A stretch of 64,000 nt of DNA, taken from the NCBI GenBank assembly GCA_905250025.1, contig CAJNOJ010000164.1, positions 124,001 to 188,000 of the forward strand, in the 5' to 3' direction. This DNA is from Adineta ricciae (taxonomy: Eukaryota > Rotifera > Eurotatoria > Adinetida > Adinetidae). Both the position numbers and the translations under genes were made by a program. Shown piece by piece: positions 11,546-53,692 of the stretch (position 1 is its first letter; every line of letters begins with the position of its first letter). The notes under the pieces are model-generated. The model was not told where the DNA came from. It did not search any database and saw only the letters and a list, made by a program, of their open reading frames with translations.

Positions 11546-14500
11546 ATGGTGGAGAAGGTATCGTTTGTAAAAAGCATTTTCGTTACGTTCTCGATTTTTC
11601 AAGTGAGTTTACTTCGTTTCTTTTTCTTCTGTAAAAAAAAAGAGACTCAATTTGTACAGATTGTTTGCGCACGGCCCTTCGGAGAAAATGGTGACGATTC
11701 ATCGAGTGATAGTCTCTTTGATGATTATGAAATGGTGTCTAATCAGCATAGAATATCAGGTACTAACAATGACGCGAAGGACGTAAACAAAATAAAATGT
11801 TTTCGATTGAATTTAGATGATCTTCGATTGAGATTGACAAACATTTATCCTGGGAATACGTGTCCTATTGCCGAATTGTATCATACGATCGTTAACAGTG
11901 GCCAGAGAGATACTTCTTATTATTGCCGGTTCCATCGAGAAATTACGAATTATTTTAGTAATCGATTATTCGTTGGCGAACTGACAGAAGAGAAGACAAT
12001 CAACAGAGTAGAAGTATTGTTTTATGATGAATCGAATCAAGCTGTCTTAGATCCATATGGTAGTCTAATTCGATACATATCCAGTGCAGACGATCTGGGA
12101 CATACTTTGGAATTACTCGAATTACAATTTTCATTTACGTATATTGAATTTGTGTTAACATTACAATCTGACGCTGTATTTAATAGACAAAACCTTTTCT
12201 TCCATTTTTCACATTCAATATCAGAAAGTAGGCCATGGAGACGATGATGCGAAACAGTAAAATTGTATCGTTTATTTTGTGTTAAGACGATGTAACTGGA
12301 AGAATTATTGGACCAACGCTGTACCTTCTCGGCCCAAGAAAACCCATCTACACCGTAACGACGACCTGTCCAGTTGATATAAGATGTGTGTGGCTGTTAG
12401 CACATCAAATTATTTTCAATGGGCCCGATACGTCTGTCGCTTTAGATTGTACTGAAAACCATATTGGCAATGCAGTATTATCTTATGTGAGTATCATCAA
12501 CGGCATTCAACAAATCCTAGCATCACTTTCAATACAAGTATGCAAAAAATGCGCAAAGAGTAAGTTAAGTTTATCGAATCTTAGAACGATACTTGATCTC
12601 TCGTGACTCATCTTCCACGAAATCAATCATCATGGTTAATATTGACTCCTTTCTATTTGCTGATGCGCATCAGCAGAAGTAGCGATTTACCTGTCAGACG
12701 GGAACCATTTGTTCACACTGTTCCATATGGTCATCTTACCATTCGTGGCCAAAACACTTCGTTTTCTCGTCATTTGACAGATCATTCTCAAGCATATAAA
12801 ACCGACCCCTACTATCAACGTCCTTTGTCCTTCACAATAATCAGAACAATTCATTCACACATCTTGCTCTCACCAAAATTCCAGTAGATCACTCAAACCC
12901 ACTCATATCAAAACTCCATTCATCCGTGACTTTCCATCCCCGAATTACAGTTTCAAAAACTGTCCCCTACATCCAATCCCACACAGACACCTACGGTGTG
13001 TGTGTGTATTTTTTTTACCTCACAGGCATTCCCACGTAACGAACCGCTCTAACCTTCTTAATCTGTGAAGCTTCCCTTGCCCATACCGAACATAACACCT
13101 TGTATTTACAAGCTACTATAGATTTACTTCTTCTCTTCCGACCACAACCCTATCTCATTCACAATTTTCATCTAACCATCCCTTTTTCTAAAGATAAACG
13201 AACAACAACCAGCACATTGCCTTCAATCACCACTTACAATACCACATTTTCCAATATACCACCCACCCTGACCACTAGTCAGGACTCATACGCGACTACA
13301 TTATACTCTACCGTCGCAGCAAACAAATACACCACTGACGAAAAACATTCTATTGTGACAACAGATTCTACCATGAGTTCAACCGAATCCACCACTACAT
13401 CCATACATTCTACAACCAAAACGATTGAATCGACCACCGCTACAGATGATTCTAGCACTGCTACGATCGAATCAGTCACCACGACACCCAATTCTACTTT
13501 AGCCACAGATTCTACTACTATCACCATTCAATCGACTACCACAACAGATTCCACCACTACTACTACTGAATCCGTGATCACCGTATCCGATTCCACTTCA
13601 GCGACGGATTCCACGAGTACTACCATTGAATCGACTACAACAACAGATTCCACCACTAGTACTGATGAATCGGTGACCACCACGCCCGATTCCACTTCAG
13701 CGACGGATTCCACGAGTACTACCATTGAATCGACTACAACAACAGATTCCACCACTAGTACTGATGAATCGGTGACCACCACGCCCCATTCCGCTGCGGC
13801 GACGGGCTCCACGAGTACTACCATTGAATCGACTACAACAACAGATTCCACCACTAGTACTGATGAATCGGTGACCACCACGCCCGATTCCACTTCAGCG
13901 ACGGATTCCACGAGTACCACCATTGAATCGACTACAACAACAGATTCCACCACTAGTACTGATGAATCGGTGACCACCACGCCCGATTCCACTTCAGCGA
14001 CGGATTCCACGAGTACTACCATTGAATCGACTACAACAACAGATTCCACCACTAGTACTGATGAATCGGTGACCACCACGCCCGATTCCACTTCAGCGAC
14101 GGATTCCACGAGTACTACCATTGAATCGACTACAACAACAGATTCCACCACTAGTACTGATGAATCGGTGACCACCACGCCCGATTCCACTTCAGCGACG
14201 GATTCCACGAGTACTACCATTGAATCGAATACCACAACAGATTCCACCGCTACTACCACTGAATTGATCTTCACCGCATCCGATTTTACTTTACCCACAG
14301 ATTCTACCACTACTACCACTGAATGGACTACAACAACAGATTCCACCGCTACTACTACTGAATCGATCTCCACCACACCGGATTCTACTTTAGCGACAGA
14401 TTCTACCACTACTACCACTGAATCGAGTACAACAACAGATTCTAACGCTATTACGACTGAATTGGTGACCACCACACCCGATTCCGCTGCGGCGACGGAT

Positions 14501-17500
14501 TCCACGAGTACTACCATCGAATCGACTGCAACAACAGATTCCACCACTACTACCACTGAATCGGTGACCACCACGCCCGATTCCGCTGCGGCGACGGATT
14601 CCACAATTACCACCATTGAATCGACTACCACAACAGATTCGACCGCTAGTACCACTGAATCGGTCACCACCATACGCGAATCTGCTTTAGCGACGGATTC
14701 CACGGCTGCTAGCATTGAATCGACTGCGACAACAGATTCCACCACTACTACCACTGAATCGGTGACCACTATACCTGATTCCGCTACGGCGACGGATTCC
14801 ACGAGTACTACCATCGAATCGACTGCAACAACAGATCCCAGCACTACTACGACTGAATCCGTGACCACCACACCCAATTCTACTTCAGCGACGGATTTCA
14901 CTGTATCATCAGACTCTAGCAGTGCTAGGATGGAATCAGTGACGATCACGCTCGATTCTACTTTACCGAGGGATTCCAGGACTAGTACCACTGAATCGGT
15001 CTCTAAGATAGCCGATTCTAGTTCAGCGACAGATTCCACGAGTGCTACCATGGAGTCGACTACCACGAACGATTTTAATGCTACTAAGACCGAATCAGCC
15101 ACCACGATACCGGATTCTACTTTAGCGACAGAATCGACGAGTATTACCATTGAGTCGGTCAGCGTCATACCTGATTCTAATTTAGCGACGGATTCCACTG
15201 TATCATCAGACTCTACCAATACTACCATTGAATTGACTACCACAACAGATGTTAACGCTAATACCACTGAATCGCTGATCATTGTACCCGATTTGACTTC
15301 AGCGACAGATTCTACTACTGCCACCATTGAATCGACTTCCACAACAGATTCCAATGCTACTACGACTGAATCGGTGACCACCACACCCGATTTTACTTTA
15401 CCGACAGATTCCACGAGTACTACCACTGAATCGACCACCAGAACAGATTCCACCACTACTACCACTGAATCAGTCAGCACTATACCCGATTCTACTTTAA
15501 CGACAGAATCGACCAGTATTACCATTGAATCGGTCACCGCGATACCTGATTCTAATTTAGCGACGGATTCCACTGTATCATCAGACTCTACCAATACTAG
15601 CATTGAATCGACTCCTACAGCAGATCCCACCGCTGCTACCACTGAGTCGGTTACCGCCACCACACGCGATTCTGCTTCGGCGGCAGATTCTACCACTACT
15701 ACCATTGGGTCGACTAGAACAACCGATTCGAACGCTACTACCACTGAATCGGTCACCGCCACGCCTGATTCTGCTTCAGGGACAGATTCCACTGTATCGT
15801 CAGAGTCTATCACGGCTGCGATTGAATCGATAGCGACCACGATAGGTGCCACTAGAACAATAGATCCCACGGTTACTGCGATTGAATTGGTCACCAGCAC
15901 ACGAGATTCTACAGTAGCCACAGTGGCCATCAGTACTACGATTGAGTCGACGATGACTACGGTTAGCACCGAATTGAAGAGCATAGCTGATTCTACTGTA
16001 GGAACGGCAAAATCTACTAGTCTGACTGGGTTGTTGACAACTGACAGGGCTGAAACCGGTGGAGGGATAAGTGGAAATGTTTTTGCCACATTAGGATCTT
16101 TTAGATCAAGCGCGCCGTCTGCCGGTAACACTAGTTTAGGCGGTGAAAATAGTAGTTTTCACGAGGACACCAATACTAGTAGCGATCCTGGAAAACGTAA
16201 TGTGACAACGACTGCAATAGGGCCCGCTACTTTAAGTAGTGAGGCAACCACCAAAGCTGCGTATCAAACTATAACTATGGGAATTTCGTCCAGTGGCACA
16301 ACTAGGGAGGCGACCGCCAGCACCACGCATCAAACTATGACCACAGGATTGTCGTCCACCAGTAGAAGTAGTCAGTCGACGACCACTAGCACCGCACAAC
16401 GAAATACAGCAACCACGATAGGTTAGTGCTTCTAGATTTCTGTTTTTGTTATCGGTAAATGATGGCAGTGTTGAGATTGATGAGCTGGTCTTAGAAAGAG
16501 TTTAGATAGGTTTGCTCTTGGCATGGAACGTTGAAGATGAGTTGATTTAGTGTGTTCGAGAAGCCAGATAGGAAGGCTTGAATGTTCTTATGAGGGAAGG
16601 TCATCAACATTAAAATCGCTTTCGATTCAAAGCATAGTCCACCGTAGGTTATCGACCATGCTGATTCCGAATAGGATGATCTCCACGGCTAATGCTCTGC
16701 CAGAGAGTCGGTTTTCTGAAAAGCCGACTTCCAGAACACCACTTTTTTTCAAATGTTGTTTTGTCCATATATCAATGTTTAATCCTTTCTTGAAAGAGTC
16801 TACTCCAGGAAAAGAAGATAAAGTTTTGAATTTTTATATAAAAATGCTATGATATACGTTCCTCATATAAATTTATATGATTGCGTGTCCTAGAAAAATC
16901 GATACTAAATAGAAACAGTTGTTGTTTTATAAACAATTCGACATGCTCTAGAACCTGAGATAATAAAAAACAACATTTGGAAAACATTGGTACCCTTGAA
17001 GCCAGATTTCCAGAAAAACGAGTCTCTGGTAGAGCATTAGCCGTGGAGACCGTCGTATTCGGGATCAGGATGGTCGATAACCTACAGTGGGCTATGTTTT
17101 CAATCGAAAGCGATTTTAAAGTTGGTGACCTTTCCGCGTTAGACATACAATGTGGCATGATAGCTTGTCGAGGGTTTTAGTGGTGATATGGAATGTATGA
17201 AAGTCGCGGTAGGAAATAGAATAATAGAGTGGGCCAGTTACAGCCTCAAGATTTACGAGGTGGAACAGTATGTGAAAGAAATAACGTTTGAGATCATGGT
17301 GCATGTACCGTAAAAATGGTTTTAGTATTTAGTTGGTAGGTTGCAGATGAATTGTTGGAAAAGAAATAGTACGATTGTAAATTTTTGAAGATAGAAATTG
17401 TTTCTGCAGTATTGCAATAAATTAGGCAAGTATGCCATGCAATACAAGAGTACCTCGGAAAGCGCTATTGCTCTTGCTATTCTTCCCGATCTTGTCGTCG

Positions 17501-19892
17501 AGAATGTATGTACGAGGCTCTTCCTAGGATTATGGAATAAGCTAGAGATGTTGATTGCGTCTTGCGTAGAAATTCTCAGAAAAGTTTCAATCGAGGTGTA
17601 TTCATTGGTGACGGTGGGATAAATTTCTTTGCAGTAAATTGTTTCCTATACAATAGTATGAGTTATATTCCTTCTTATTTCCTCGAAAACGATCGAATGA
17701 TAAAGAAATCTTTTTTTATTTTGTACAGTGTGTTCGTTGAGCAGTATCGAGAACGGTGGCTTCGAAAATGGTAGTTCTGTTGGGTGGATTGTCGGTGGTG
17801 GAAACCGATCTTCGGTACTATCATCCCAAATTCAGCCAGAGGACTATCTACCGAATGGCGCGCGATACGAAGAATCAATTGCTCTTAACAGTTCTTCAAT
17901 TGTAACACAGGGCGAAGATCCGTTAGTAACAAGCCTCCTATCCCGCATTGTTTATGCTGGTAATTACGCATGGCGTGTCGGTGATATGGCAAAAGGTACT
18001 CGTGTAGCCGTAATTAGTCGACAGGTCGATAACTATTATTGTTCGGATATGTACTTTGCATGGTTAGCTTATTTAGAAGTCGGAGATCATCCCCAAAACG
18101 AATCCAGCCTTATAATAATCGAACTGAAAGATATAAGTAACAACGAAACCTTACTTTCACGACGTTTCGATTCTGCAGTGAATTCAACAAGTGACTACAA
18201 GTTTATTTCCTATAGGGATAATACTATTTATACACCCAGTTGGCAAGTTGAACATGTATCTATTAACCAATCTTATCACGGTCACAATTTTACCTTGACG
18301 GTACTTGCTGCAGATTGTCGAGAACAATTTCATTCAAGTTACGTCTATATTGACAGTTTTGGTAGCGTCAATCCAAGTCAGTAGTGCTTATAGATGAAAA
18401 TAATGTTCTGGAAACTGCGTACTGTTTCGAGGAAACTTGATTTTGACAACGTCAAGTTTCATGTCCAACTTACAGTTCTTTTTGTTGTCGTTTTTTCAAT
18501 TTGAAATTCTTCAATAAAGTAGAACATGAATATTTCATTTCAACAGAATCCTTATATAATGACACTTTTAAGTAAAGATCGCTGACGATAAAGCCAGGAC
18601 AGATTTGTTTGGAATCTTCTCTATGTTTTAGAAAAATATGTAATTTTATGGATTGTCTTAGACATGTTGTTGTATGGCCAGAATAGGCCTTTGAAAGAAT
18701 TAATTATTAATGCAATAACAATTCGCCTTAGATGTCAGACGTGCCCTATGCATCGTATCTGAAAAGCGAACCAGAAATTGTGTAAGATGGTCATGAGGTA
18801 TACTCATAGGTAGCTTGGAACAATCGTCACTTCTTTTGAAAATCAACTACTACCCGACCAACGAAACGTAACATGAAAATCATAGAAATAAATCGATGAA
18901 TTGATTACTATGCGTATATTGTTCATCTTATTCCCTTGTCATTAAAGAAAAAAATTTGCCTCTTCTCTAGTGAGATTTGTTTTCCATGTAGCTTACAAAC
19001 AGCTTCATAAAACAACCCGAATATGAAAGATTATCATGAGAGAATATCCAAAATAAGAATAGTACCGATATGTTTATTAATATAACTTGCTGGATTATCG
19101 ATCTTCAATGTAGGTACATGTAGCCCACCCTGCCAAAACAACGGAACTTGTACGATATATCACAACTGTACATGTGCATCTGGCTTTACTGGTCAAACAT
19201 GTAACATTCGTAAGTATTCAAGAAGTGGGTGTTATGCACATACTTTATGCTTCTCTTTGCTAGAATCTGCTAATCTTTGCTCGGCAAATAATACATTCAA
19301 CAGCACTCCTATTATATTAGTTACATTTGGTTCTGGCAAACAGCAACATTCTGCCGCTCAACCTGCTAGTTTTAATTTTTCGACCACTTATTCGCAAGTT
19401 TTTCAAAGTGTACCAAGCGACGGCCATTTTGCTTTCGTCAATTCTGTTCCTTCTGGTTACGATACGTGGCATATCGGTGCTCTTGATCACACAGAAGATA
19501 CAAACGGATACATGTTTCTCGTAAACGCGGCTCTCGCAGCCGGCCAATTCTACAATAGTACAACCAATCACCTATGTATTAATAAACGCTATGAATTTTC
19601 AGTTTACTTAGCTAATGTTTGCAAGAAAGATTGCTTAATAATGCCAAACGTTCGATTTGAAGTTCGAAGCACATCAACTAACCATACATTACTTGCACAA
19701 CTAGATTCAGGAAACATACCAATGAATCCAAGTATTTTAGATTGGAAGAAGTATGGCCTTTCATTTATACCGCCGACCAATTCCGTTACTCTATTAATGA
19801 TATCGAACGCTGCAGGTGGCGATGGAAATGACATAGTCATTGACGATATCGCATTGCGTGTTTGTGCAGCGCAAGGTGCTGGTTTTTGCTGA
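11546..19892 (+). CDS. Mucin-like modular secreted protein with EGF and Bacteroidota-type C-terminal domain (complete copy)
   Basis: Seven exons: 11546-11602, 11660-12227, 12287-12559, 13194-16421, 17729-18376, 19114-19209, 19264-19892. They sum to 5499 bases, an exact 1832-residue frame. Order of parts: signal peptide; an unrecognised Cys-containing domain of about 280 residues; a Thr/Ser/Asp/Glu array of about 1000 residues; a beta-rich domain opening with ENGGFENGSSVGW; one EGF-like domain (CxxxCxNNGTC ... CTCASGFTGQTC); and a final domain with WHIGALDHT, GYMFLVNA, CINKRYEFSVYLAN, DWKKYGLSF and DGNDIVIDDIALRVC. The last set resembles a domain of large Bacteroidota surface proteins. All introns after the first are phase 1, typical of shuffled extracellular modules. 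No membrane anchor follows, so secretion to matrix or mucus is inferred. Exon calls are by eye. Confidence 0.82.
13589..14228 (+). repeat. 99-base coding minisatellite (33-residue unit)
   Basis: About six and a half nearly identical units begin at 13589, 13688, 13787, 13886, 13985, 14084 and 14183. Each encodes a Thr/Ser block ending in DESVTTTPDS. The third unit carries several substitutions (CATTCCGCTGCGGCG in place of GATTCCACTTCAGCG). More degenerate units with the same theme continue to about 16000. The unit length is a multiple of three, so copy-number change keeps the frame. Confidence 0.9.
16422..17728 (+). other. Intron 4 of mucin-like gene
   Basis: The intron joins the repeat exon (ending in one base, G) to the exon starting TG at 17729, restoring a Val codon. 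It is 1307 bases, against 783 bases in the homologous copy (47680-48462). The difference is mostly an inverted-repeat element at 16595-17135. Short open frames inside are not conserved as coding. Confidence 0.75.
16595..17135. mobile_element. Fold-back (MITE-like) element in mucin intron
   Basis: The left arm (about 16595-16762) and right arm (about 16969-17135) are inverted copies of each other over roughly 168 bases. Shared stretches include TTAAAATCGCTTTCGATT, GTAGGTTATCGACCAT and TCTCCACGGCTAATGCTCT. The centre is about 206 AT-rich bases with no convincing gene. The homologous intron at 47680-48462 lacks the whole element. No clear target-site duplication is visible, so the family is unknown. 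Non-autonomous DNA transposon is the best reading. Confidence 0.72.
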
Positions 19893-20476
19893 CCTCGAAA
19901 CAATCCAAATGCTTTACCTTATAATTAAAGTCATCAAATGATAATTTTTGCTTCAATAATTGGGAATCGATGTATATAATCGCTTGATTTTAATTTCGAA
20001 TAAACATTAGGTATGTGATAGACAACATGTCTATATTCCATACCTTTTGTAACAAGAAATATATAAACTTGTTCCGATTCAAGTTATAGTTCTTTTAGTT
20101 ACAAATGTTTTTTTCTTCTTTCGAAATTTCCTGTCACATCGCTTTGCTTCCCAATTCTCACTCAATTAATTGATTATTTCAATGTGAAGTTTGAGACATA
20201 CTTATTCATGATCCAACTTGCGGCACGAAAGCATTTCAGATTGAATGCAAATCGAAGTTTATGTGTAATGAGTCTGAGAATATATTCAGACTAATTAACT
20301 GTAACAGAAATCGGTAGATTATCGAGAAAAAAAGAACCGTGTTAGAATCTTATCATTTCGTCCCTTTCATATCGATTCTCATCTTCATGAACAACTATTT
20401 GTTTTGATTTTTTACTTTCCAGTCTAAATGATTAATATAAACAAAGTAGAGTACATCCATCTGACATTAATCAATC
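19893..20476. other. Intergenic between convergent mucin-like gene and SLC22
   Basis: 3' flank of two convergent genes. AATAAA-like polyadenylation motifs occur (for example in CGAATAAACATT near 20000). Homologous to 50594-51198. No gene seen. Confidence 0.6.
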
Positions 20477-22581
20477 TTACTTCATAAAATTCATCTGTTC
20501 GACATCAGCGACCGATTGAGGCAATGGTTGATGCAATGTTTCAGGAAACATCAATGCCAATAATGCAGCAATGAACGAAGCACAACCATAGAATAATACT
20601 GGAAAATGAATCCATAATCGTGTCTAGAACGAAATAGTTCGGAACATAAACGTGATTTTAATTTGATCTTTACCAGATTATCATTCGAAAATGTTCCGAT
20701 AATCGCACCGATACGTGCGACCATTGAACAAATTCCCATTCCGGTGTTTCGAACATTCGTTGGGAAAAGTTCGTTTGCATATATGTAAATAATTGCGTAC
20801 GATGACGATGCGAGGAATTTCAAAGTACCATTAATAATATTCATGATTATCTTTTCACCTAAACGAATCGAATTGTGGCATGGAAATAATTTGCGTAAAC
20901 GAACTTTGCCCATCTTTTTCCATCAGATATTGAACAGGAAGTATGAGAAATGAGACAAATGAGAACATGATGACAAATGTACAATAAGGAACTTTTCGAC
21001 CGACTCGATCAAGCATGGAATGAACAACAATATATCCGAGCAGTTCGACAAAGGCACTAATACCAAATGATGTATATGGATCGAAATCCCACGAACCTAT
21101 TTGTAAATTCGTATGTCATTTTATATGATTTCAGACGAAAAACAACCTGTATTCTGGGAAACACCGTAGAAAACAAGATTTTGCACGAGCCTAAATGACA
21201 AAATAACAATGTAAGAATGTTTTTTTTTATAAAATGTACTATACTACCATTGAAAAAACAGATTGATGCTAATCATTGCCATGATTTTCGATTGGAATAG
21301 ACTTTTTACTCCTTCCTTGTGTTTTTCCTGTGACATAATCTAAATTCGAGACATCGAACATTCATCCTCTCATCAAAAAGAACTTGCTACTTACTTCGAT
21401 TTGCTCCTGTTTAAGTTGTTCAAAAGCATTTGTATCAAACTTATGTCCATTCATTTTAGCAATCTTTCTTAAAACTTGTTCACCTTCATCAAATCGACCT
21501 TTACTTATCAGCCATCGTGGACTTTCGGGTAAAATGCTTCTCATACGAAAGAAGTTTACACATAATATTAGTTGTACTCTTCGAATTGATTAACTTACTA
21601 ATAAAAGAAAAGATACGGATATGTAAATAAAGATATAGCCCATGTTAGAGTTCGCCATGTTCGAATAAAATATGCGAATATTAATAGAATCATTTGGCCA
21701 AATGCAAAGAAATATTCAATAACAATGCCTGTCAACAGTCGTTTTTCTGGTCCAACTACAGATTATCAATAAAACGTTTTATGTCAAGAGACTTTCGCCA
21801 ATTACCTATTTCAGAACCGAGCACAAAACCAGATACGGAAATTCCCCTCGTCGAACAGGCAAGTAGAAACCTCGCCAAGACAAATATCACATAGGATGGC
21901 CAAAATCCCAGCGATTTCTGTGGTCCAAATGTACACAATAAACTCGATAATGTCATTAGAAGAAAACTAATGCTCATAATCGGTCGGCGACCATACCTAC
22001 GGAAAGAAAAACAATTACGAAAGGAGAGATTGGATCTCTAGGAGTGTTTATACTTATCAGCAAGGATGCCGAATAGAATCGAACCAACCATATAACCAAC
22101 AAAGAAAATCATTTGTACCCATGAACGGTAGCCAACACGATCGCAGACCATATTCCACTACAAGAAATGGCTTTAACTAAGTTGTTTATTCAAATCAAAA
22201 GTCTACTTCTTCGATTAATGTTTTTTTGTAGTATGTACGATCGAAAACGTAATCGTCACATGTTTGTAATGTCGAATTGATCAACGATGAACGCAGAAAA
22301 CATCGTTGACATTCTTTTAACGAAAGAGATTTTTGATGTAATAAACATTGTTCACTTGTTGGACGATAGTCTTCGTTGAATAAGGAATCAAACGTTTGAT
22401 TATACTTGTCTATTGATTGTAATGAAGGATTTCGACAACGAAAATTAGGTGTAGCAGCTGTAAATGAATATGTGTACACCATAATTGGCGGTAACATGTA
22501 TGTTAAACATATAATCGCGTATTTGATCTTTTGAAATCGTCCCCAATCGTTTATTACGAATAAAAACTCGTCAAACTTCAT
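20477..22581 (-). CDS. SLC22-family organic ion transporter, copy 1
   Basis: Ten exons on the minus strand: 22581-22207, 22157-22054, 21996-21806, 21755-21599, 21536-21395, 21339-21248, 21190-21147, 21096-20905, 20858-20674, 20623-20477. They give an exact 542-residue frame, the usual length for SLC22. Family signatures are the large Cys-rich extracellular loop after TM1, WNMVCDR, the DKYGRRP loop between TM2 and TM3, ILPESPRWL after TM6, NTG at the end of TM7, and [14 protein letters not shown] near TM11. It should move organic cations or anions across the plasma membrane; the substrate is not predictable. One acceptor (before CATTTTACCC) was chosen because the alternative creates a stop in both copies. 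It is transcribed divergently from the RING-VWA gene 388 bases away. Confidence 0.87.
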
Positions 22582-22969
22582 CAAGAAGATATTCTTCTTC
22601 TTCGTCTCTACTTCGTACAAGCACGAACACCGCAAACGTGTGCTATTCTTTGTTTTATCGAATCAATTGAAAGATGATTTCATACACAAGAATGAAACCG
22701 ATACATCGTTCTCATGCAACCATGTAGATTGATAACTATTCCAATGATAAAATATGGCAAAGTTGATCATCGGTGAGAACAAAAGAGCAAGCCTAACACA
22801 ACTATCACGCGAAGATACCTTTCTCATAATGACTCATCGCAATAAAACAAAGCACTTCCTTCGAATTAGTCACAGATGATGTATTTACAAAATGTAATAT
22901 ATTCAGGTGAAAAGATTCATTTGTATTGACTTTCTCTGCTGTAAACACGTCGCACGTGAAACAATAGCC
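22582..22969. promoter_or_regulatory. Divergent intergenic region, SLC22 / RING-VWA
   Basis: 388 bases separate the two start codons, with matching arrangement at 53306-53692. Shared regulatory sequence is inferred only from the geometry. Confidence 0.4.
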
Positions 22970-24847
22970 ATGTCCTCTACACATTCTTCGAAGTCGAAGC
23001 CGTATACACTTAACGAATGTTCGATTTGTTTGAGTGCTCTGAAACAAGGTGCACCAATTCTTACGCTATCGTGTGAGCACAAATACCATTTTCAATGTTT
23101 AATGTTAAGTATCCGAGCACAACATAAACAATGTCCATTATGCCGAGCGACAATTGACGAATCAATTGTTCAATTGATAGCTGCGAATCGTAATAATACT
23201 AGTTATCATAGTTCACGATCTTCATCTGTAAACAATCTCTTTCCAACAACACATCTCTCTAATCGTTTTCTATTTACAAGGATAATTTACTTGGATCAAA
23301 CGTTGAATCATCGTCTGGTCTTCCGACAATTTCCGTAACTCCCCGACTTGAATATAAAGGACAATCATCGGAAAGACCATCGAATATCTATGGACTTGTC
23401 ACACTCCAAGCAAATTCGACAGGACACCGTTCTTCGTCATCGTCGTCTCGTGTACCAATTGATCTTATTTGTGTTGTTGATCAGAGTGCATCGATGTCCG
23501 GAGCTAAAATGATTCTATTGAAAGAAACGCTGACTTACATTACCGAACAATTGACTGACCGTGATCGATTAGCCATTGTTTCATTTGATAATCATGCTTA
23601 TGATCGATCGCACGGATTGAAGCAAATGACTGAGCAAAAGTAAATCTAATTCAGTGCACATATATTTCACTGGATGTGTTCAATTTTACTATTTAGTAAA
23701 CATAGATTACATCGAGTAATTAAACACGATCTTGAAGACGGATTTAGTACGAACATCAAATGTGGATTGGAAATGGCAATTCGTCTATTTCGAAATCGGC
23801 AAGGGGAAAATCCGATCAGTGCATTATTCTTGCTCACTGATGGGCAAGATGATGAGATTCAAGATTATTCGCAAACTATGAGACAGGTACCTGCGAATGT
23901 CGTTTGCCATACTTTTGGTTATGGACCAGATCATGCTGCAGCTTTACTAGTGAAAATAGCTGAATCTGGTAATGATGGAACTTTCACCTATATTGTAAGT
24001 TTGCCCAAGAATCGACAATACAATTGTTCACTTCTTCTATTAGGATAAGTACGACGCTATTGGTCCTGCATTTGCTATTGCACTGGCTGGTCTGTTGACA
24101 TGTGTAGCGCAAAATATTCGTGTTGAGATTGAATTCAACGACGGATATCAAATAACTCATGCTCATTCTATATACAAATATGAGCCTGAACGTTTACCAT
24201 CGTCAAGAATTACATTCAAACTAAACAATCTCAATGCGGATGAAAAACGAAATCTCATCTTCCAATTATCTGTACCGAGTTTGAGGGGACAAACTTCGTT
24301 ACAGGATCATGTCATCGGTATGTTTATCACATCGTACAAAGACAAAAAAATATGTAGTTATCTTTCGTCGCCAGGTCATGTTTCAGTCCGATACGTTGAA
24401 CCAAATACCAATCGCACATTGACAACGACGCCAGCGCCCTTTCATCTAATTCGAAGATCTCCTATGTCTGCAGAATATTTACAAGTCGATCATACTTTAG
24501 ATGTTCAACGCAATCGAATTGAAACTGCTCTTGTTCTACGACAGGCTATGGAAGAACACGACTACAATCTATCGAAAGCTTTACTCAAAGCACAAGTTGA
24601 TAGAATAAAAGCTAGTGCATCAGCGCAAGATCCATTTTGCAGACAATTAATTCGCGATCTAGAACATCCTTACTCAACAGAAAACGACTATCGTTCGACG
24701 CATCACAATATTTACATGCAACATGCAACAGAGCGTGGGACTTATTCATCTGCAAGTAGTTCTAGTGCGCACGTCTACTCAAATCCGAACCACTTAAGCC
24801 AAATTCAAAATTACCAAAGACAAAATGAAGTATCATTTGACTTTTAA
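22970..24847 (+). CDS. RING-H2 / VWA-domain protein (putative E3 ubiquitin ligase), copy 1
   Basis: Exons 22970-23227, 23281-23639, 23697-23994, 24044-24317 and 24375-24847 give an exact 553-residue frame. Near residue 18 a RING-H2 finger is visible: CSIC, then CEHKYHFQC, then CPLC. A von Willebrand A domain follows with an intact MIDAS (VVDQSASMSG; later a LLTDGQDD loop). After it comes a beta-rich segment like the Vwaint region of plant WAV3-type ligases, then a helical Gln/Ser-rich tail. It probably transfers ubiquitin from an E2 to a substrate bound by the VWA part. The GTG upstream at 22907 is not used as start. Intron 24318-24374 is 57 bases and open, so retention would add 19 residues in this copy. 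Confidence 0.87.
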
Positions 24848-25492
24848 AAGAAAAGATATGTAAACAAAGACAATAAATAAACATCGAGAACTCTTTCTCT
24901 GTGCCTTTTGTTGTACATGAGTTTGTCTCCATGACTTTCAAAAATTATTGTTCAGTCAGTTAATCTTCTTGGTGAAGTGCTTTTAGTGTTGACCTGAAAA
25001 AAGGAAGATCAGTCAATTGAAAATCAAACAATTTTCCTAGATGATCAACTCAAACAGATTTGATAAGTTCCAGTTAATAACAAACCAAGAATTCTACTCT
25101 CTCCCACCATCTTACATGCAAAAACGTTTGACGTCAGCATTTCGAGCATACACCCTCACATCACAAATTGATATAATAAGCTAAAGGCAAAATACAATCT
25201 AGGGATCTCGATAACATTTGCATCATTTTTAATCCTAGAGCAACGCTCCGAAAATCATGCATAATTCATCTGACTATGTGCTATAGCTAATTGACTGCGT
25301 TTGCCCTGAAGGCATATTGCACTAGACACTAAATCAAGAACACTTATCCCTACTTTGCTCTGACGTCGTGATAATCGATTTTGGCTTTCAATTAAGTATC
25401 ATAGATTATCCTACAGCTTTCCATAATTACTCTTATTTCAGCTCTTTTCAACATCATCATATCTTATCTTCTCTATTGGACAAGACATCCTC
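24848..25492. other. Intergenic before GPCR copy 1
   Basis: Homologous to 55558-56232. No gene is supported; short open frames overlap the GPCR 5' flank only. An AATAAATAAACAT polyadenylation-like motif follows the RING-VWA stop. Confidence 0.55.
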
Positions 25493-26482
25493 ATGTCAGC
25501 ATCGATCAACTACGATTTCATTCTCACACTCTCGTCAATCAAACGAAATTTATTCTCAATTGGCGGTCCAGTTTTAGTCATCTTGGGCACAATCGGCAGC
25601 ATTCTAAGCTTCAGCATATTTATTCAAAAACATTTACGAAAGAATCCATGTTCAATTTACTTCATGGCATACAACATCGCAAGTATCGGCGTTATATACG
25701 GAGGATTACTTCCACCCGTACTGGAACTTGGTTATGGTATCGATTATTCTATTTACAATCTTGATATATGCCGTTTACGGCTATATGCGGCAGTTTCACT
25801 CGGTTGCATATGTCCATCGTATCTCATTCTAGCGTCAATTGATCGCGTTTTCATTACGTCGCCTAAAGTTCACATGCGAAGACTCAGTAGCCGCCGTTAT
25901 GCGGCTATATTTATAATCACTGGAACATTGCTTTGGTTATTATTTTCAATTCCTATCGGCGTGTTTGCTGCTATCTTGAATCCGTTACCGAACTATTTAA
26001 TTTGTCTTACGCAAGCAAATACTTATACAAATATAATTAGTTATGGATCATTGACTAAAGAAATATTGGTGCCATCAATGATGGTTTTCTTCGGTTTATG
26101 GGCAGTGAAAAATATCCATCGCATGAAACTCGTACGAGTTGCACCCACTGGCTCACTTCAGACAACCCAGCGCAAGACTGGCACACCTATGATTCAAGCA
26201 AAGGATCGTCAGCTTGTTGTTCTGATGCTTATAAATATCATTATTTATGTTCCCTTCAGTTGTGTTTTACCAGTCGTACTTCTTTATACACAACTAACAG
26301 CACGTCAGCCGAAAAGTATAGAAACACTGCAGTCGCAGGAGTTTCTCTTTCGTGTGGCAACTTATTGCGTATATGTTCCATACTGTATAAATTCTTATGC
26401 ACACTTATTTATGTCGAAAACGTTCCGCAAGGAATTGAAGGATATTATCTTGAGTGGACGATTGTTTCGATGTTGTGCATAA
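25493..26482 (+). CDS. Rhodopsin-like GPCR, orphan, copy 1
   Basis: A single exon encodes 329 residues with seven hydrophobic segments. TM1 has GTIGSILSF, TM2 lies in the SIYFMAYNIASIG stretch, the end of TM3 reads ASIDRVF (a DRV variant of the DRY motif), and TM7 reads YCINSYAHLF (an NSxxx variant of NPxxY) followed by a basic SKTFRKELK helix 8. It resembles the expanded FMRFamide/peptide-receptor-like sets of bdelloids. The ligand is unknown. The ATG at 25493 starts just before the extracellular N terminus. The homologous copy at 56233 has the same length. Confidence 0.85.
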   Translation: MSASINYDFILTLSSIKRNLFSIGGPVLVILGTIGSILSFSIFIQKHLRKNPCSIYFMAYNIASIGVIYGGLLPPVLELGYGIDYSIYNLDICRLRLYAAVSLGCICPSYLILASIDRVFITSPKVHMRRLSSRRYAAIFIITGTLLWLLFSIPIGVFAAILNPLPNYLICLTQANTYTNIISYGSLTKEILVPSMMVFFGLWAVKNIHRMKLVRVAPTGSLQTTQRKTGTPMIQAKDRQLVVLMLINIIIYVPFSCVLPVVLLYTQLTARQPKSIETLQSQEFLFRVATYCVYVPYCINSYAHLFMSKTFRKELKDIILSGRLFRCCA

Positions 26483-26966
26483 AGTTTTATGTAGTTTATC
26501 TGCGTTATAAAAATACATCATTCTAAATGAAAAAAAAACAAATATTTGATCGAATTCAACAGAGAGACAAACAAGTTCTAAGTTGGAGTGTGAAAATGAG
26601 AGTCAACCTGTTAATACAACTGTGATCAAAACAAACTTGCACAAAATTATCTTTTTTGTGTAATTTTTTTAGGAATATATATTCGTTAGTTATGGAATCT
26701 ATTCGTGGTATGAAAATATGTCTTTACTTCTTTCTTTCAAATAAATATTCGAGTATCATACGGTTAATCGTCTAATAAACTGTCAGACCTTAGTATTATG
26801 CTATATAAAAAAGGTATAAGATGGATTTCTATTGGTAGTCCTAATAATAAAGTCATTATAGTAAGTTGTGACGATCTCACTAACATGCGCTGTACGCATG
26901 TTGTTTTCTCTGCCGATAGATGCGTATATATACGTGTATTTTGTATTAGAACGACACGATTGTTGA
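26483..26966. other. Intergenic; homology between blocks B and B' breaks at 26861
   Basis: Bases up to 26861 align with 57223-57604. From 26862 the two copies differ completely until 28654/61365. No complete gene seen here. Confidence 0.6.
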
Positions 26967-28998
26967 GAGGAAGAAATACATATAAGTGCACTACCATCAG
27001 CTCATGTATCTCCTTCATCAGAAATCGTCAGAATGCTGGTTATCAATTATTTTCTCAACCATTTTGTTTTCCCACGCGAAGCAAAACAATTTCCTTATAA
27101 AATCGTTGCATCGGCATGGGATCTCTCGTTTTCGGAACGATCACAGACCATCACGGGATTCAGCGGCACAAACGACACACAATTGCTCTTACCTGAGTTA
27201 GAAAAGACCGACGCAATCGTTATCAATAATCTCTTACAAAGTGAAAACAAAAATTATTATTCTTTACCTATCAATGCCACTTCAAACGAGATATTGACAC
27301 AAATTTTTGATTACAAAGAAAGCATCAATGTCATTCTAGACGTTGGTGCATTGTTTATTGATAAAAGCAATCGCGATATTGCCGTTCATTGGCTGAATTT
27401 ATCGAATAAACATCGAATTGACTATGCAGTGTACTTCGATCTCGACTCGATCGTCGTCTGTGATCGACAATATCATCATCAACGATTCGAGACATCTCCG
27501 GCAAGCGAACGATTGCCTCACTGTGTCTTCTATCTCGACGAGATTCATACTCGTGGAACAGACTTGAAATTCCCTTCAGGCTTCCGTGCAGCAGTGACGC
27601 TAGGCAGCGGTTTAACAAAAGATCGATTTGTTCAAGCATGCATGAGAATGAGACAACTTGGACACGGACATTCGTTAACATTTTGGAGTTCAAACGAAGT
27701 TCATCAGCAGATAATATCATTAACTAAACATTTGTGCTCCAGCGAACAGAATTGTGTTATTGAAATTCTTCGGTGGGTGTACCAAAACACGATTCATTCG
27801 ACATGGGATGGATTGCACCATTGGGCAGAACAAAGTCTGAGTTTTCAACGAAAATTAAGTGCATCTCGACAAATGCAATGGGCAATGACCCAACAACGTC
27901 CAACACCAAATATACTCATGAAAGAATTTGCTGAACAGTGCCTAGAACCGGAAATAACCAAGTTAAAAAAAATGTACGGGCACATCCAAGAAACTGCACA
28001 CACTAGAGCGAATTTTCTCTGTTCGACGTCAACAGTGTGTTTCTTATCTATTGTCTGATATTCATAGTGCTGTTCTACAACGATTGCGAGAGTATGGAGG
28101 ATCGAAGAAGCGTCTAGCCCAATTACTAGATGAAGAGCAACAACGAGAACTACAGCAAGAATTAGAAGAGGAAAGGCAATTAGAACGGCCGTCATCTGTA
28201 ACACCAATGAAACCTATTCTTCACGAAGAAATAAAACGATTAGCTGACGTGTATGGCGCTGACTTAAACTTGAAATTATTAACAAATGTATTTCAACCGA
28301 TATCATATGCTTTTTCTGATACAACTCTGCTCAAGAATTGTCAAGCAGACACGTGGCCAAAGAATTTCTGGGTTACGACTGAGTTCCAACGAGTTATTTC
28401 CAATAAAGGCAACAAAGATGATCCAGTTTTACGACCACCACGCTGGATAATTGTCTATCGAAATAAACATATTATTTTCGTCAGTCCATTCGAAACCAAT
28501 TGGTTAATTAATCACTTACGCTACAATGATTCGACTAGTACTACTTTACGCATATTGTTGCCTCGTACAAAACGAATTCAATCCATACTTGTCAACATTC
28601 CAACATTAACAATTCCACCATTGATTCAGACTTCCGACCTATCTTCCTTTTCCATGTATTCTATACCAACTCAATGGTTAGCATCCTTGTTTGTGTTCAA
28701 CGGTACTCATTATTTTGGATCCGACGAAGAGCAACAAGTCTATTGTCAGTGCTTAGGTTTATGTCTCATACCTCGAACTAAAGCAGAAGATGAGGCTTTC
28801 GAAAAAGGTTGGATTGCCATCGATGGATTTGTTAGTAATCCAACACACCGTCCTCTTTTACATCTCAATGCTGCCCAATTCACATCGAATCCGTTGGCAT
28901 TCGTCAAACAATTACTCGAAACGCGAAATAATTCATACATACCGATAATATCACATGTTGGTAGTATTATTTTCAATACGCGAAAACTTAGCTTTTAA
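26967..28998 (+). pseudogene. DUF3638/DUF3645-type protein, C-terminal fragment with frameshift
   Basis: Two overlapping frames (to about 27998, then from about 28003 to 28998) form the C-terminal 650-odd residues of a family whose members usually exceed 2000 residues. The DEIHTRGTDLKFP and GLTKDRFVQACMRMR motifs identify it. The frame changes inside GCACACACTAGAG near 27997-28009; restoring one CA unit would rejoin the frames, so a dinucleotide loss in a short CA run is likely. There is no room for an intron. The 5' part is absent: the frame opens after a TGA at 26964. These proteins are linked by annotation to ubiquitin biology, but biochemistry is poor. Broken gene or sequencing error cannot be separated here. 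Confidence 0.75.
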
Positions 28999-29160
28999 AG
29001 TTCCTTCATCTTAACAAAACGACACACTTTTTTGTATGTATATTCGATGATATTTAATAATAATCAAAACCTATTGAAATCTATAAGAAACAACAGTTCT
29101 GCTACACTTCGACACAATAAGCTTGTGCGCCGTACGGTACAATTTTTTATACAGAAAGGA

Positions 29161-29782
29161 TTATTTTTTGGAAGATCGTTTCCCAGACTCCGCAACAATC
29201 GGCAATCTCCCATTTTCCCAAACAATAATCCATCCAAATCCTTGACCATTGAATATATCTTCGAATTCAATTGCTTCCGGTCTGTTTGCTACTGAATCTA
29301 AGACATACCACGAATCGTCGTGTTTTTTCGCGCACCAAACATGACCATCATCGAAGATGATCACTGATGCACAATCGTCGGAGAAGTTTTTTCTAAAAAT
29401 AAATCGTAATTGCACGCAGAACAAGAAAAGACAAGCGTTCGTACTTGAGTTCAGGAGGATTGTTCGGTGGGTAGTATGAACTTGTAGCGTGGAATTTATT
29501 CAAGATGAAATTGAAGATATTATTATTAATGGAATGAATAAAGACAACATCACGGCTTCCAGTACAGCGATTTTGCTTGTCAAATTCATCGCAATATTCG
29601 AAAAATCTACAAGAACATATATATATAGGAAGTACCAGTGGAAAATGATCTTACTTTGCTTCACTAAGAATCGATTGTCCTAATGCATTGTTGATTGCAT
29701 GGATTCGACAAGAATCCTTGTTTTTCTGTTTTTCAAAATAAAGCGATCGTACTGTTTTAAACTTTCTCTGATGCTTACTCAT
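29161..29782 (-). CDS. Josephin-like cysteine protease (putative deubiquitinase), copy 1
   Basis: Three minus-strand exons, 29782-29655, 29606-29445 and 29392-29161, give an exact 173-residue frame. The N-terminal part holds DSCRIHAINNALGQ, matching the Josephin catalytic Cys helix (C-x-x-H-x-x-N-x-x-L). The C-terminal part holds DDGHVWCA and WYVLDS, the expected His and Asn/Asp positions, then PEAIEF and GFGWIIVW ending NGRLP. This is the Josephin order and size. It would cleave ubiquitin or a similar tag in the cytosol or nucleus. It is small, without UIM motifs. The start lies 655 bases from the divergent UBA-aminotransferase gene. Family assignment rests on motif spacing, not a search. 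Confidence 0.72.
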
Positions 29783-30437
29783 AATTCAACGCGAGAATCA
29801 ACACGACGCGGCGATATTTGTTGTTTTAAGCTACTTGTTTACACGCGTATAAATAGAGAAGCGAATGCATGACGCATAAATATTTCATAATTTTCCTGCG
29901 TAATAAAACTGCATGATACACGTAGCGTAGACACTATACTTTATCATGATGAATCGTCAATAGGAAGTGACGCAAACTATTCAATGGCAAGGAATGTTTT
30001 AAAATTTAGTTAGAAAGAAAATCGAACAACTTCTCACCCCAAAGAAGTATATTCTTCCACTAGACTGTTGTCAAGATGACATTAGGAATTTATTCAACAT
30101 TGAAAAACCGAAAAATCCTACCCGCATCACGTTTGATTTTTGTGCTGTTATTTTCCAACTTGTCTATAGTGTTACAACGCAAGATGATTCACTGAAAAGT
30201 AAACATAACCCGAATAAAATTCCATCATCACTCGGTGTGTAATTTCGAAAAACAAACATTCTATCCAGCGTGTACGTATTGTTGAAGGGAGAAATCCACA
30301 GTTGTGTTCTGTAAGCTTTTATGAAATTTCCAATGATCTGGAAAAAAAAAGAATCGTGAAACTGGAAATTATGTACTTATATAGGCCGTGTCATATTGGC
30401 ATTGTAAGTACTCATTACTTGCATTTCTTCGATTAGG
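29783..30437. promoter_or_regulatory. Divergent intergenic region, Josephin-like / UBA-aminotransferase
   Basis: 655 bases between the two ATGs, with a matching 633-base region at 62493-63125. Long stretches are identical between copies. No specific motif recognised. Confidence 0.4.
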
Positions 30438-45680: not shown

Positions 45681-46474
45681 GCGACCTTTGAATGCAACTC
45701 CGTCTGGTGGTTCAGCTTCTTTTCTAGTTCGAGAACGATATTCATGGAATCGTAATACATACTATTGTGATGGTACAACTATTGCCAATAACGGTCTAAT
45801 AAGTGGTGGCAACAATGTTGCTTGCACAGCAGGTCCCTGCACCGGTTGGTCTAACATGCTGACATCCACGTATTGCACGGATTTCAGTGCTGCTCTTACT
45901 GTTAGTTCGGGTGAAAGAACTCAAGTGTATACATTCCCACTGAATATTTCATTCACGATTTATTTTTATGGCACTAATTGGTTTGATGGCCTTGAAGTAG
46001 GTAACAGTACAAGTTGGTATGTGTCGAATCGTATCATTACAAATGTCAGACCAGATGGTTATCTTAATACCAGCCCTATTGGTGTCACAATTCCTATCAT
46101 CTACAAGCCAATCAACATACAACAGGTGCATGTTGTTCAAATGGCTGACTTCGATCCAACTGATATCTTAAGATGTCGATGGTCCACTAATATATCTGCC
46201 AATAATACATGTCAATATAATGAATGTGGAGGAATCTGTAGCGGTGTTCCTGGTGCTGTACTTCTTCAGAACAACTGTACTATCGTATTTACACTAACAC
46301 ATGCTAAACTATACGCAGGGGTGGCACTACAAATTGAAGATTTCTTCAACAATGCAACATTGGTAGCTAATACACCAATGAGTTCTGTTCCACTTCAGTT
46401 TCTCTTCTATGGCTATTCTGTAACAGGTAATTGTACAAAACCGCCACAAATCATTGGTAATCGACCCAACCGAG
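45681..46474 (+). CDS. Partial gene: Cys-containing extracellular domain exon
   Basis: One long exon is bounded by a TTTTATAG acceptor and a GAG/GTAAGC donor at 46475. It encodes about 264 residues with many N-glycosylation sequons and Cys, and motifs such as VVQMADFDPTDILRCRW, NECGGIC, ALQIEDFFN and SSVPLQFLFYG. I recall this pattern from invertebrate adhesion-type extracellular proteins but cannot name the family. The exon starts with one base and leaves one base (phase 1 donor). The rest of the gene is lost at the N at 46482. Reading straight through into the mucin repeat is out of frame. Confidence 0.6.
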
Positions 46475-46482: not shown

Positions 46483-47300
46483 GTACGACAGAATCGACCA
46501 CACCAGATTCTACCAGTGGTACGAACGAACCTGGGACGGCCGTTACCGATTCGTCTGAATCAACAGGCTCCACCAATGCCACGAACGAATCCAGCACACC
46601 TGATTCTAGCAATAGTACGACAGAATCGACCACACCAGATTCGATCAGTGCTATAATTGACTCGAGCACGGCCGTAATGGATTCGTCTGGATCAACAGAC
46701 TCTACCAATGCGACGACAGAATCGACCACACTAGATTCTACCAGTGCTATAATTGACTCTAGCACCAGTACGACAGAATCGGCCACACCAGATTCTACCA
46801 GTGGTACGAACGAATCTGGGACGGCCGTTACCGATTCGTCTGTATCGACAGAATCTACCAATGCGACGAAAGAATCCAGCACACCTGATTCTAGCACCAG
46901 TACGACACAATCGAGCGCACCAGAGTCTACCAGTGCCACGACTGATTCCAGCACACCGGATTTTTCCAATGCTACAATTGAGTCGAGCACGAGCGTAACC
47001 GATTTGTCGAGATCAACAGACTTCACCAATACTACGAAGGAATCCGGCACACCAGACTCTAGTACTACTACGACACAATCCGGCACATCTGATTCTGCTA
47101 ATGCTACAATTGACTCGGGAACGACCATGGCTGATTCGCCTGTATCAACAAGCTCGAGTGGTGCTACGAAAGAATCGTCCATACCAGATGCTACTGATGA
47201 TAGAATTGAGTCGAGCACGACTACTATCGGTTCATCTGTATCAGCAAACTCTGCTGCTACGACGAGTGAAGGGACCATGATGAATATTACGAAGGAATTT
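46483..47300 (+). repeat. Ser/Thr-rich coding minisatellite, copy 3
   Basis: Degenerate units of Thr/Ser with Asp or Glu, the same subtype as block A. For example the unit around 46795-46880 is almost base-identical to 5540-5630. Units degrade towards the 3' end of the exon. Confidence 0.8.
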
Positions 47301-50300
47301 AGCAGAACAGCAGAGTCTACTGTAGGAGCTGATAAATCTACTGGGGTGACTGGAATGTTGACTACTGCTGTTGGCGAAACCAGTGGGGGGATAACTGGAA
47401 TGGATTTTGTGACAATTACATCTAGTACATTAAGCGCCACGTTTGGAGGTAACACGAGTGTAGGCGGGGAAAATAGTAGTTATCATGAGCACGCTAATAA
47501 TGGGAGCGATACAGGTAAAAGTATTACGGCAACAACTGCAATGGTGTCTGCGAGTACAGGTAGTCTGCAAACCACTAGCATTACGTATCATACTACAACT
47601 ACTGGAATGGCGGTCACTAGTGGAAATGGTCAGTCGACGACTACTAGCACGACGCAACGAAGTACTACAACCACGGCAGGTTAGTGGCTATAGAGTTCTG
47701 TTTTTGTTTTTGACAGAGAAGGGAGTGTTGAGACTTATGAGCTAGCTTTAGAAAGACTTTTGATAAGTTTACTGCCGGAATTTTGGGATTGAAGACGAGT
47801 TGAACTAGTATTTCCGTGAAGTGAAATAGGAGGGCGCAATAGTTTTTAGATATTTAATGTGGTATGACGGTGTGTCGTGGCGTTTAGCGGTGATATCGAA
47901 TGTATGAAAGTTGGGGTAGGAAATAGAATTATAGAGTGGGGCAATTGCAGCCTCAATATTTATGAGGTGGAACAGTATGTGAAAGAGAAAGACAACGTTT
48001 GAGATCGTGGTGCGTGCGCCGTAGAGATGGTCCTAGCAGGTAGTTTGTAGCTTGAAAATGAATTGTTTGAAAAGATAGAAATTCTTGGTGCAGTGGTGCA
48101 TCTTGATAAGACGGTAGTCGTTAGGAACCAAAGTTTGATTGTAGTTGTTGTGTAGTTTATATTCTTCGCGTTACAATAAATCAGGCAGATATGCCGTATA
48201 ATAGGAAAGCACTTCGGAAAGCGTTTTCGCTCTTGCTAGTCTTCCCGATCTTGCCGTTGAGGATTATGGAATAAGCTACAGATTTTGATTTGCGTCTGTT
48301 GTAGAAATTCTCAGAATAGTTTGAGTTCAGGTGTATTCATTGCTGATGATTGGATAAATTTCTCTGCAGTAAATTGTTTCCGATGCACTAGTATGAGTAA
48401 TACTCCTAATTATTTCCTCGAAAATGATTGGATGATAAAGAAAAACTCTTTATTTTGGACAGTGTGTCTGTTGAGCAGTATCGAGAACGGTGGCTTTGAA
48501 AATGGTAGTTCTGTTGGGTGGACTGTCGGTGGTGGGAACCGATCTTCGGTACTATCATCTCAAATTCAGCCAGAGGACTATCTACCGAATGGCGCGCGAT
48601 ACGAAGAATTAATTGCTCTTAGCAGTTCCTCAATTGTCACACAGGGCAACGATCCGCTCGTAAAAGAACTCCTACCCTGCATTGTTTACACTGGTACTTA
48701 CGCATGGCGTGTCGGTGATATGGCGAAAGGTACTCGCGTAGCCGTAATTAGTCGACAAGTCGATAACTATTATTGTTCGGATATCTACTTTGCATGGTTA
48801 GCGTATTTAGAAGTCGGAGATCATCCCCAAAACGAATCCAGCGTTATAATAATCGAACTGAAAGATATAAGTAACAATGAAACCTTACTTTCACGACGAT
48901 TCGATTCTGCAGTGAATTCAACGAGTGACTACAAGCTTATTGCTTATAGGGATAACACTATTTATACACCCGTTTGGCAAGTTGAACGTGTATCTATCAA
49001 CCAATCTTATCAAGGTCACAATTTTACCTTGACAGTACTTGCTGCAAATTGTCGCGAACAATTTCATTCAAGTTACGTCTATATTGACAGTTTTGGTAGC
49101 GTCAAGCCAAGTCAAGTCATTATTACTCATAGATGAAAATAATGTTCTAGAAACTGCGTATTGTTTTGGGAATCACTTGATTTTGACGACGTCAAGTTTC
49201 ATGCTTAACTTGCAGTTCTTTTTGTTGTTGTTTTTTCAGTTTGAAATTCTTCAATAAAGTAGAACGTGAATATTTCATTTCAACAGAATCCTTATAATAA
49301 CACTTTTAAGTAAAGATCGCTGACGATAAAGCCAGGACAGATTTGTTCGGAATGTTCTCTATGTTTTAGAAAAATATGTCATTTTATGGATTGTCTTTGA
49401 CATGTTGTTGTATGACCAGAATAGGTCTTCGAAAGAAATAATTATTAATGCAATAACACTTCGCCTTAGATGTCAAACGTGCCACATGCATCGTATCTGA
49501 AAAGCAAACCAGACGTCGTGTAAGATGATCATGAGGTATACTCATAGGCAGCTTGGATCAACGAAACTTAGCGTGAAAATTATAGAAATAAATCGATGAA
49601 TTGATTTCTATGTGTATATTATTCATCTTATTCCCTTGTCACTAAAGAAAAAAATTTGCCTCTTCTCTAATGAGACTTGTTTTCCATATAGCATACAAAC
49701 AGCTTCATAAAACAGCCCGAATATGAGAGATTATCAAGAGAGAATATTCAAAATAAGAATAGTGCCGATACGTTTATTAATATAACTTGCTGAATTATCG
49801 ATCTTCAATCTAGGCACATGTAACCCACCCTGTCAAAACAATGGAACTTGTACAATATATCACAACTGTACGTGTGCATTTGGTTTCACTGGTCAAACAT
49901 GTAACATTCGTAAGTATTCAAGATGAATGTTATGTACATACTTTATGCTTCTCTTTGCTAGAATCTGCTAATCTTTGCTCTGCAAATAATACATTCAATA
50001 GCACTCCTATTATATTAGTTACATTTGGTTCTGGTCGCAAGCAATATTCTTCCGCTAGCCCTGCTAGTTTTAATTTTTCCACCACTTATATGCAAGTTTC
50101 TTCTGGTAGCGCACCAAACAATGGCTATTTTGCTTTCGTCAATTCTGTTCCTAATGATTTCAGTACGTGGCATATCGGTGCTCTTGATCACACAGAAGAT
50201 ACCAAAGGGTACATGTTTCTAGTAAACGCGGCTATCGAAGCCGGCCAATTCTACAATAGTACAACCAATCACCTATGTATTAATAAACGCTATGAATTTT

Positions 50301-50593
50301 CAGTTTACTTAGCCAATCTTTGCAAACAAGGTTGCGCAATAATGCCAAACGTTCGCTTTGAAGTTCGAAGCGCATCATCTAACCATACATTACTTGCACA
50401 ACTAGATTCAGGAGCCATACCAATGAATCAAAACACTTTAGATTGGAAGAAGTATGGTCTTTCATTTATAGCGCCGACCAATTCCGTTACTCTATTAATG
50501 ATATCGAACGCTGGAGGTGGCGATGGAAATGACCTAGTCATTGACGATATCGCATTGCGTGTTTGTGCAGCACAAGGCGCTGGTTTTTGCTGA
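46483..50593 (+). CDS. Mucin-like modular secreted protein, copy 3 (3' half)
   Basis: Exons <46483-47679, 48463-49110, 49814-49909 and 49962-50593, all phase 1, reproduce the last four exons of 11546-19892: Ser/Thr array, ENGGFENGSSVGW domain, one EGF-like domain (CNPPCQNNGTC ... CTCAFGFTGQTC) and the Bacteroidota-like C-terminal domain (WHIGALDHT, GYMFLVNA, DDIALRVC). The N-terminal exons are missing at the N. Its Ser/Thr units match those of 5430-6491 nearly exactly, so it is probably the other half of copy 1. The last exon is one codon longer than in copy 2. The frame is intact to the TGA at 50591-50593. Confidence 0.8.
47680..48462 (+). other. Intron of mucin-like copy 3
   Basis: 783 bases, homologous to 16422-17728 but without the fold-back element. 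No gene seen. Confidence 0.7.
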
Positions 50594-53305: not shown

Positions 53306-53692
53306 CAAGAAGATATTCTTCTTCTTTTCTACTTCGTACAAGTGCGAACACCGCAAATGTGTGCTATTCTTTGTTTTATCGAATCAAGTGAAAGATGATT
53401 TTATACATAAGAATGAAACCGATACATCGTTCTCATGCAACCATGTAGATTGATAACTATTCCAATGATAAAACATGGCAAAGTTGCGATCATCGTTGAG
53501 AACAAAAGAGCAAGCCTAACACGACTATCATGTGAAGAAACCCTTCTCGTAATGACTCATCGCAAGAAAGTAAAGCACTTCCTTCGAATGAGTCACAAAT
53601 GATATATTTACAAAATGTAATACACTCAGGTGAAAGGATTCATTTGTATTGACTTTCTTTGCTGTAAACACGTCGCACGTGAAACAACAGCC
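53306..53692. promoter_or_regulatory. Divergent intergenic region, SLC22 / RING-VWA, copy B'
   Basis: 387 bases, nearly the same length as 22582-22969 and clearly homologous. Promoter role is inferred from position. Confidence 0.4.

Follow-up and report, generated by a model that had tools for sequence, protein, structure and literature searches.

Gene transfer into bdelloid rotifers is well known, and mostly concerns whole genes, often enzymes. The 64,000-nucleotide stretch of the Adineta ricciae genome analyzed here (contig CAJNOJ010000164.1, positions 124,001 to 188,000; hereafter the window) carries in two copies a gene in which a Ser/Thr-rich mucin array and an EGF exon precede a terminal exon encoding a domain of Bacteroidota type, which we call A. 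Like the horizontally acquired bdelloid genes of earlier reports (PMC4632278, PMC3499245), A appears to be foreign sequence in a bdelloid; A differs in being a single domain, now part of modular animal proteins and present in many copies, and not a whole gene. Domain-level capture into EGF/mucin proteins with subsequent expansion is not met in the titles and abstract openings covered by our literature search, and the domain is unnamed there for rotifers, which is no proof of its absence from the literature. We propose one old transfer of a Bacteroidota domain, followed by expansion in bdelloid EGF/mucin proteins in which the domain would serve as a glycan-binding head, and we give this explanation as a whole a probability of roughly 0.7. 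The transfer from Bacteroidota taken by itself is, judged from the comparisons below, much the likeliest reading, short of proof.

The sequence-only reading had recognized a Bacteroidota-type surface-protein domain from six motifs (WHIGALDHT and others), all of which are present in the translation of the A exon with the frame intact, and relatives were indeed recovered in Bacteroidota from sequence alone. Our searches spanned prokaryote genomes, phages, plasmids and viral contigs, with Bacteroidota as the only phylum sampled in depth. One degenerate pattern derived from the rotifer alignment, run over a prokaryote genome collection of 84,980 species, returned 8 stretches and two confirmed loci, both of them from Bacteroidota: an uncultured Bacteroidota bacterium, in which two A-type genes lie a short distance apart, and Phaeodactylibacter luteus (locus L038). 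Profile searches matched 46 of 296 Bacteroidota genomes at E <= 1e-3, a count that takes in the centre genome, and 59 of 198 genomes within the order at E <= 1e-10. Against 70 Bacteroidota domains, the window A reached 127 bits at best by BLASTP, whereas none of 100 shuffled versions of A scored above 25.8 bits. Identity to Bacteroidota sequences is ~40% over 180 residues. G81, N117, G187 and D193 form a conserved core found in all 51 rows, and the cysteines at both ends are kept in 46 of them. No match to A was found in phages, plasmids or viral contigs, and a bacterial member searched against plasmids likewise found none.

The homology extends over the whole of A and involves the N-terminal domain of CHU_C-associated Bacteroidota proteins; with that of P. 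luteus, A shares ~42% identity, the same motif series and the terminal cysteines. The surroundings of the domain are different on the two sides. In the bacterial proteins it stands directly after a signal-peptide-like start and is followed by other modules and CHU_C, the type IX secretion domain with which the P. luteus protein ends and which Pfam finds in 3/3 of the bacterial proteins scanned, whereas the rotifer A is C-terminal, behind EGF and mucin parts and introns; the window exon contains no CHU_C and ends directly after A. The bacterial proteins had also been described as very large, which for the most part they are not: 48 of 69 profile matches lie in open frames shorter than 1000 codons, and among the best 24 bacterial matches only 3 are in frames of at least 1000 codons, while some frames reach 6118. 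Membership of A in NTTRR-F1 (NF033675) was rejected, the window A scoring 25.8 bits against a curated cut-off of 70, and this profile gave 3 matches in the rotifer genome, the best at 27.4 bits and none above the cut-off. We note that one of 14 control genomes, that of Methanosarcina acetivorans, gave a sub-cut-off match to the same profile; archaea may therefore have distant relatives of the domain.

In the trees, the 23 rotifer rows form one clade (support 100/99 with 76 rows and 100/100 with 93 rows), which groups with Phaeodactylibacter-type rows and locus L047 together (95/81 in the 76-row tree, 97/86 in the 93-row tree). A trimmed 78-row set groups the rotifers with four Phaeodactylibacter-type rows at 100/96. 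A tree constrained to group the rotifers with L037 and L038 (three rows) came out 1.5 log units above the free 76-row search (p 0.559). Keeping the core bacteria together to the exclusion of the rotifers lowers the score by 14.6 to 21.1 log units, which is not enough for rejection (p values below). The 76-row tree leaves out three loci repeating L037 and L038, 6 short matches and 4 duplicates; the 93-row tree leaves out 6 long rows, and from the 78-row set 11 bacterial rows were removed together with 4 rotifer rows that represent 3 loci.

The animal gene itself can be followed through the window on the plus strand, on which all features given here lie. In copy 1 the A exon (19264..19892) encodes ~208 residues of predicted jelly roll; it has an acceptor AG at 19262-19263 and a frame open through to the TGA at 19890-19892, and a poly(A)-signal-like AATAAA follows at 19999..20004, with a counterpart in copy 2 at 50700. 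The EGF exon (19114..19209, 96 bp), with boundaries predicted from the DNA, is flanked on both sides by phase-1 introns, with AG at 19112-19113 and a donor GTAAGT from 19210, and scores 25.2 bits with PF00008 (gathering cut-off 21.5) and 29.2 bits with PF23106 (cut-off 24.3). The mucin array (13196..16421, start approximate) ends in a codon split in phase 1 at a donor GTTAGT from 16422. Both modules said to precede A are thus real, by the Pfam scores and by the mucin frame open to its donor, but between them lies a stop-ending exon, B (17729..18384), which must be skipped for A to stand behind both. B encodes 217 residues, is entered in phase 1, has its stop at 18382-18384 and a poly(A)-signal-like AATAAA at 18513..18518 (counterpart in copy 2 at 49253), and is a candidate alternative last exon. 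A candidate first coding exon (11546..11602) has a signal-peptide-like N-terminus, judged by reading only, and the one 5' junction tried for copy 1 was out of frame. The front of this gene at 11819-12226 differs from that of copy 2 and carries no family name. We also considered a separate EGF-A gene starting within 18385-19113, but both copies lack an exon there that would combine an ATG with a consensus-like phase-1 donor; trans-splicing straight onto the EGF exon would leave no in-frame start.

The second copy has an A domain at 49962..50593, intact like the first and 85% identical to it in protein, an EGF exon at 49814..49909, a B exon at 48463..49136, six codons longer at its end, and a mucin array at 46483..47679 (start approximate; one N at 46482) with the same phase-1 donor. 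It is part of a direct block duplication on the one contig, 30.7 kb apart (17139-26865 versus 47846-57608, 90.7% DNA identity), unlike which the mucin arrays and 5' parts of the two genes differ. A further pair, 28654-31300 and 61365-64000, is duplicated with 92.2% DNA identity. At ~16590-17140 an alignment gap makes the mucin-B intron ~520 bp longer in copy 1 than in copy 2, and the extra piece has, by eye, long inverted ends like those of a small transposable element. Upstream of the copy 2 mucin array, 45643-46455 is an open stretch of 271 residues that matches no Pfam family at E <= 0.1.

A had been thought to be kept in two copies, and while the second is real, these are not the only ones: a search of the assembly (130.5 Mb, 1033 contigs) gives 28 matches with E <= 0.01, some of which are fragments. 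An EGF exon lies directly upstream of A in 12 of 23 near-full copies checked, and a copy on contig C124 has the module order repeat, Cys module, mucin, EGF, A. Several side observations concern this family. Loci L013 (176-883) and L077 have a Cys-rich module with DCGG motifs upstream of EGF-A, the L013 stretch being without a Pfam family; on contigs C209, C112 and C473 several A domains are clustered, perhaps as multi-A proteins or local gene arrays; and in the upstream part of L014, on the plus strand, an A gene is adjoined by an open frame that may encode a family 16 glycoside hydrolase. The notion that copies followed by GGTTAG or GGTTCG (L018-L020, L022, L025, L027) are symmetric 1-1 exons was dropped, since for several of these copies the reading GGT-TAG gives a stop.

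Since the mucin, B and EGF exons are all in phase 1, the mucin exon can be spliced either to B or to EGF-A, and alternative last exons would be the simplest reading of the gene. B has 9 matches in the rotifer genome; the seven that were read, both window copies included, stop at nearly the same position, give or take a few codons, and B therefore appears to be C-terminal. Outside this genome the only relatives found are weak ones, which come from 6 of the 296 Bacteroidota genomes and reach E 5.2e-9 at best, with none in plasmids or viral contigs; B-like modules also occur in other bacterial phyla. Because the relatives found are few and weak, a bacterial origin of B is no more than a lead. That A, a plain relative of a Bacteroidota surface domain, and B, which distantly resembles a different module of large Bacteroidota proteins, are bacterial-type jelly-roll-like modules of separate origin, both phase-1 terminal exons, with one mucin gene switching glycan-binding heads by alternative last-exon splicing, is a tentative idea that we hold to be rather doubtful.

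The arrangement leaves room for another view, in which the live gene is mucin-B and the EGF-A part of the window gene is a disused 3' leftover. The acceptor of B looks strong by eye, its stop is near-constant in the 7 rotifer copies with a poly(A) signal in those of the window, and between copies 1 and 2 the ratio of nonsynonymous to synonymous change (Ka/Ks) is higher for A, at 0.68 from 41.7 and 17.3 changes, than for B, at 0.33. In both copies, nevertheless, EGF-A has kept intact reading frames, splice sites and poly(A) signals, and the EGF exon has a Ka/Ks of 0.07, a value based on just 2 and 6 changes; for all three exons the ratio, as a point value, is below 1. We consider the leftover view unlikely, while taking it seriously.

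Returning to our proposal, its functional part concerns the fold. A predicted model of A is a beta jelly roll, as in carbohydrate-binding modules (CBMs), of which CBM4/9, CBM22, CBM61 and the porphyran-binding module 8XMZ, a target of the type IX secretion system according to its PDB name, share only 11-17% identity with A. Pfam CBM_4_9 matches 9 of 51 A-family members at E <= 0.1 (best 8.1e-5) and PF00629 (MAM) matches 18 of 51 weakly, without a hit to the window A, which falls in no Pfam family. A profile match of ~110 residues (E 0.001-0.005) was found to 6YF6, which we take to be the C-terminal fucose-binding domain of Enterobacter cloacae EclA, and it includes the loop SMGND, probably the calcium/fucose site of that domain; A is longer, and 6YF6 is absent among the 50 structural matches listed. 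We suppose that A binds glycans, probably with calcium at its conserved GGxGND loop near the end.

In our proposed scenario, a Bacteroidota bacterium close to the Phaeodactylibacter (Haliscomenobacteraceae) lineage would have been the donor, in a single event, to a bdelloid ancestor, and what was passed on would have been the surface domain at the N-terminus of a protein secreted by the type IX system. As a single phase-1-entered exon placed after a symmetric phase-1 EGF exon, the domain would then have multiplied to over 20 copies of nearly full length, including some in genes with mucin parts. Its product, a CBM-like jelly roll binding glycans with calcium probable at the GGxGND loop, might be displayed on a glycosylated Ser/Thr rod with an EGF spacer in a surface coat, in mucus or in the feeding current. 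Splicing of the mucin exon to B, or over B to EGF-A, would yield two secreted forms with different heads. Of all this, the homology, the number of copies, the exon phases as they read in the DNA, the tree and the predicted fold are shown, while the direction of the transfer, the binding of glycans and calcium, secretion and the use of alternative last exons are inferred.

Several observations weigh against this scenario. A Ka/Ks of 0.68 is weak constraint for A, 5 of 19 rotifer rows lack D189, and 11 of the 23 near-full copies have no EGF in the upstream sequence examined. In the profile search titin, matched piecemeal over short stretches, came out ahead of 6YF6, and a search with one bacterial member as query found no 6YF6-like chain. 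The phylogeny, suggested as a check by the sequence-only reading, did place one rotifer clade beside Phaeodactylibacter-type rows among Bacteroidota, but the approximately unbiased test does not reject core bacteria excluding rotifers (p 0.081 with 35 rows, 0.127 with 55 and 0.103 with 50); the roots are midpoint roots only, and L047, the immediate sister row in the 76-row tree, has support of only 83/30. The search for relatives covered prokaryote collections, with depth in Bacteroidota only, and meprin matches the predicted fold as well as the CBMs do, at 16-17% identity in structural alignment.

Two other histories of A bear on these points. The transfer might be real with a donor outside the sampled Bacteroidota lineages, from another phylum or through an intermediate eukaryote; the depth of sampling in Bacteroidota alone and the long rotifer stem (0.60 changes per column, 93-row tree) would fit, whereas the cross-phylum pattern scan confirmed Bacteroidota only and plasmids and phages gave no matches, and we judge such a donor quite improbable. 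Alternatively, A might be an old animal domain, a diverged relative of MAM, inherited vertically, with Bacteroidota having taken it from animals or both having kept it. Meprin is an animal protein with a MAM domain, and its fold match would be in line with this; however, the nearest relatives of A found in the prokaryote collections searched are bacterial, with the ~40% identity far above that to meprin, all 23 rotifer rows are one clade, and core bacteria and rotifers together form a group that excludes 15 remote Bacteroidota rows (97/94, 93-row tree), making this history very unlikely. Bacterial contamination of the assembly, for which nothing speaks beyond the similarity to bacteria itself, is ruled out for practical purposes by the introns, the EGF exon, linkage of the A gene within a 241-kb contig, a GC content of 0.399 for A versus 0.374 for the window, and the spread of the 28 matches over many contigs.

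The animal side of the A gene is shown by its introns, its EGF exon and its linkage within the contig, and also by rotifer-type spliced-leader arrays in the assembly. A 23-base rotifer spliced leader is printed in PMC3795323, where it is described as common to three species; PMC1925144 ascribes a shared 23-nt leader to bdelloids and reports none in its Brachionus expressed sequence tags. The assembly has 0 exact matches to it, 41 with one mismatch and 46 with up to 3, clustered on several contigs, and the reversed control has 0; on this basis the recipient would be a bdelloid whose leader differs from the known one by a single base. Arrays of a leader variant were seen on contigs C6, C8, C43, C77, C79, C99 and C146, often as divergent pairs ~150 bp apart.

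A single bacterial surface domain thus seems to have joined the animal extracellular module system of EGF, mucin and phase-1 exons, and to have multiplied there. If true, this would offer a clear example in which to study how foreign DNA turns into a protein module of an animal, and it would raise the question of whether bacterial-type glycan recognition serves rotifer surfaces, feeding or defence.
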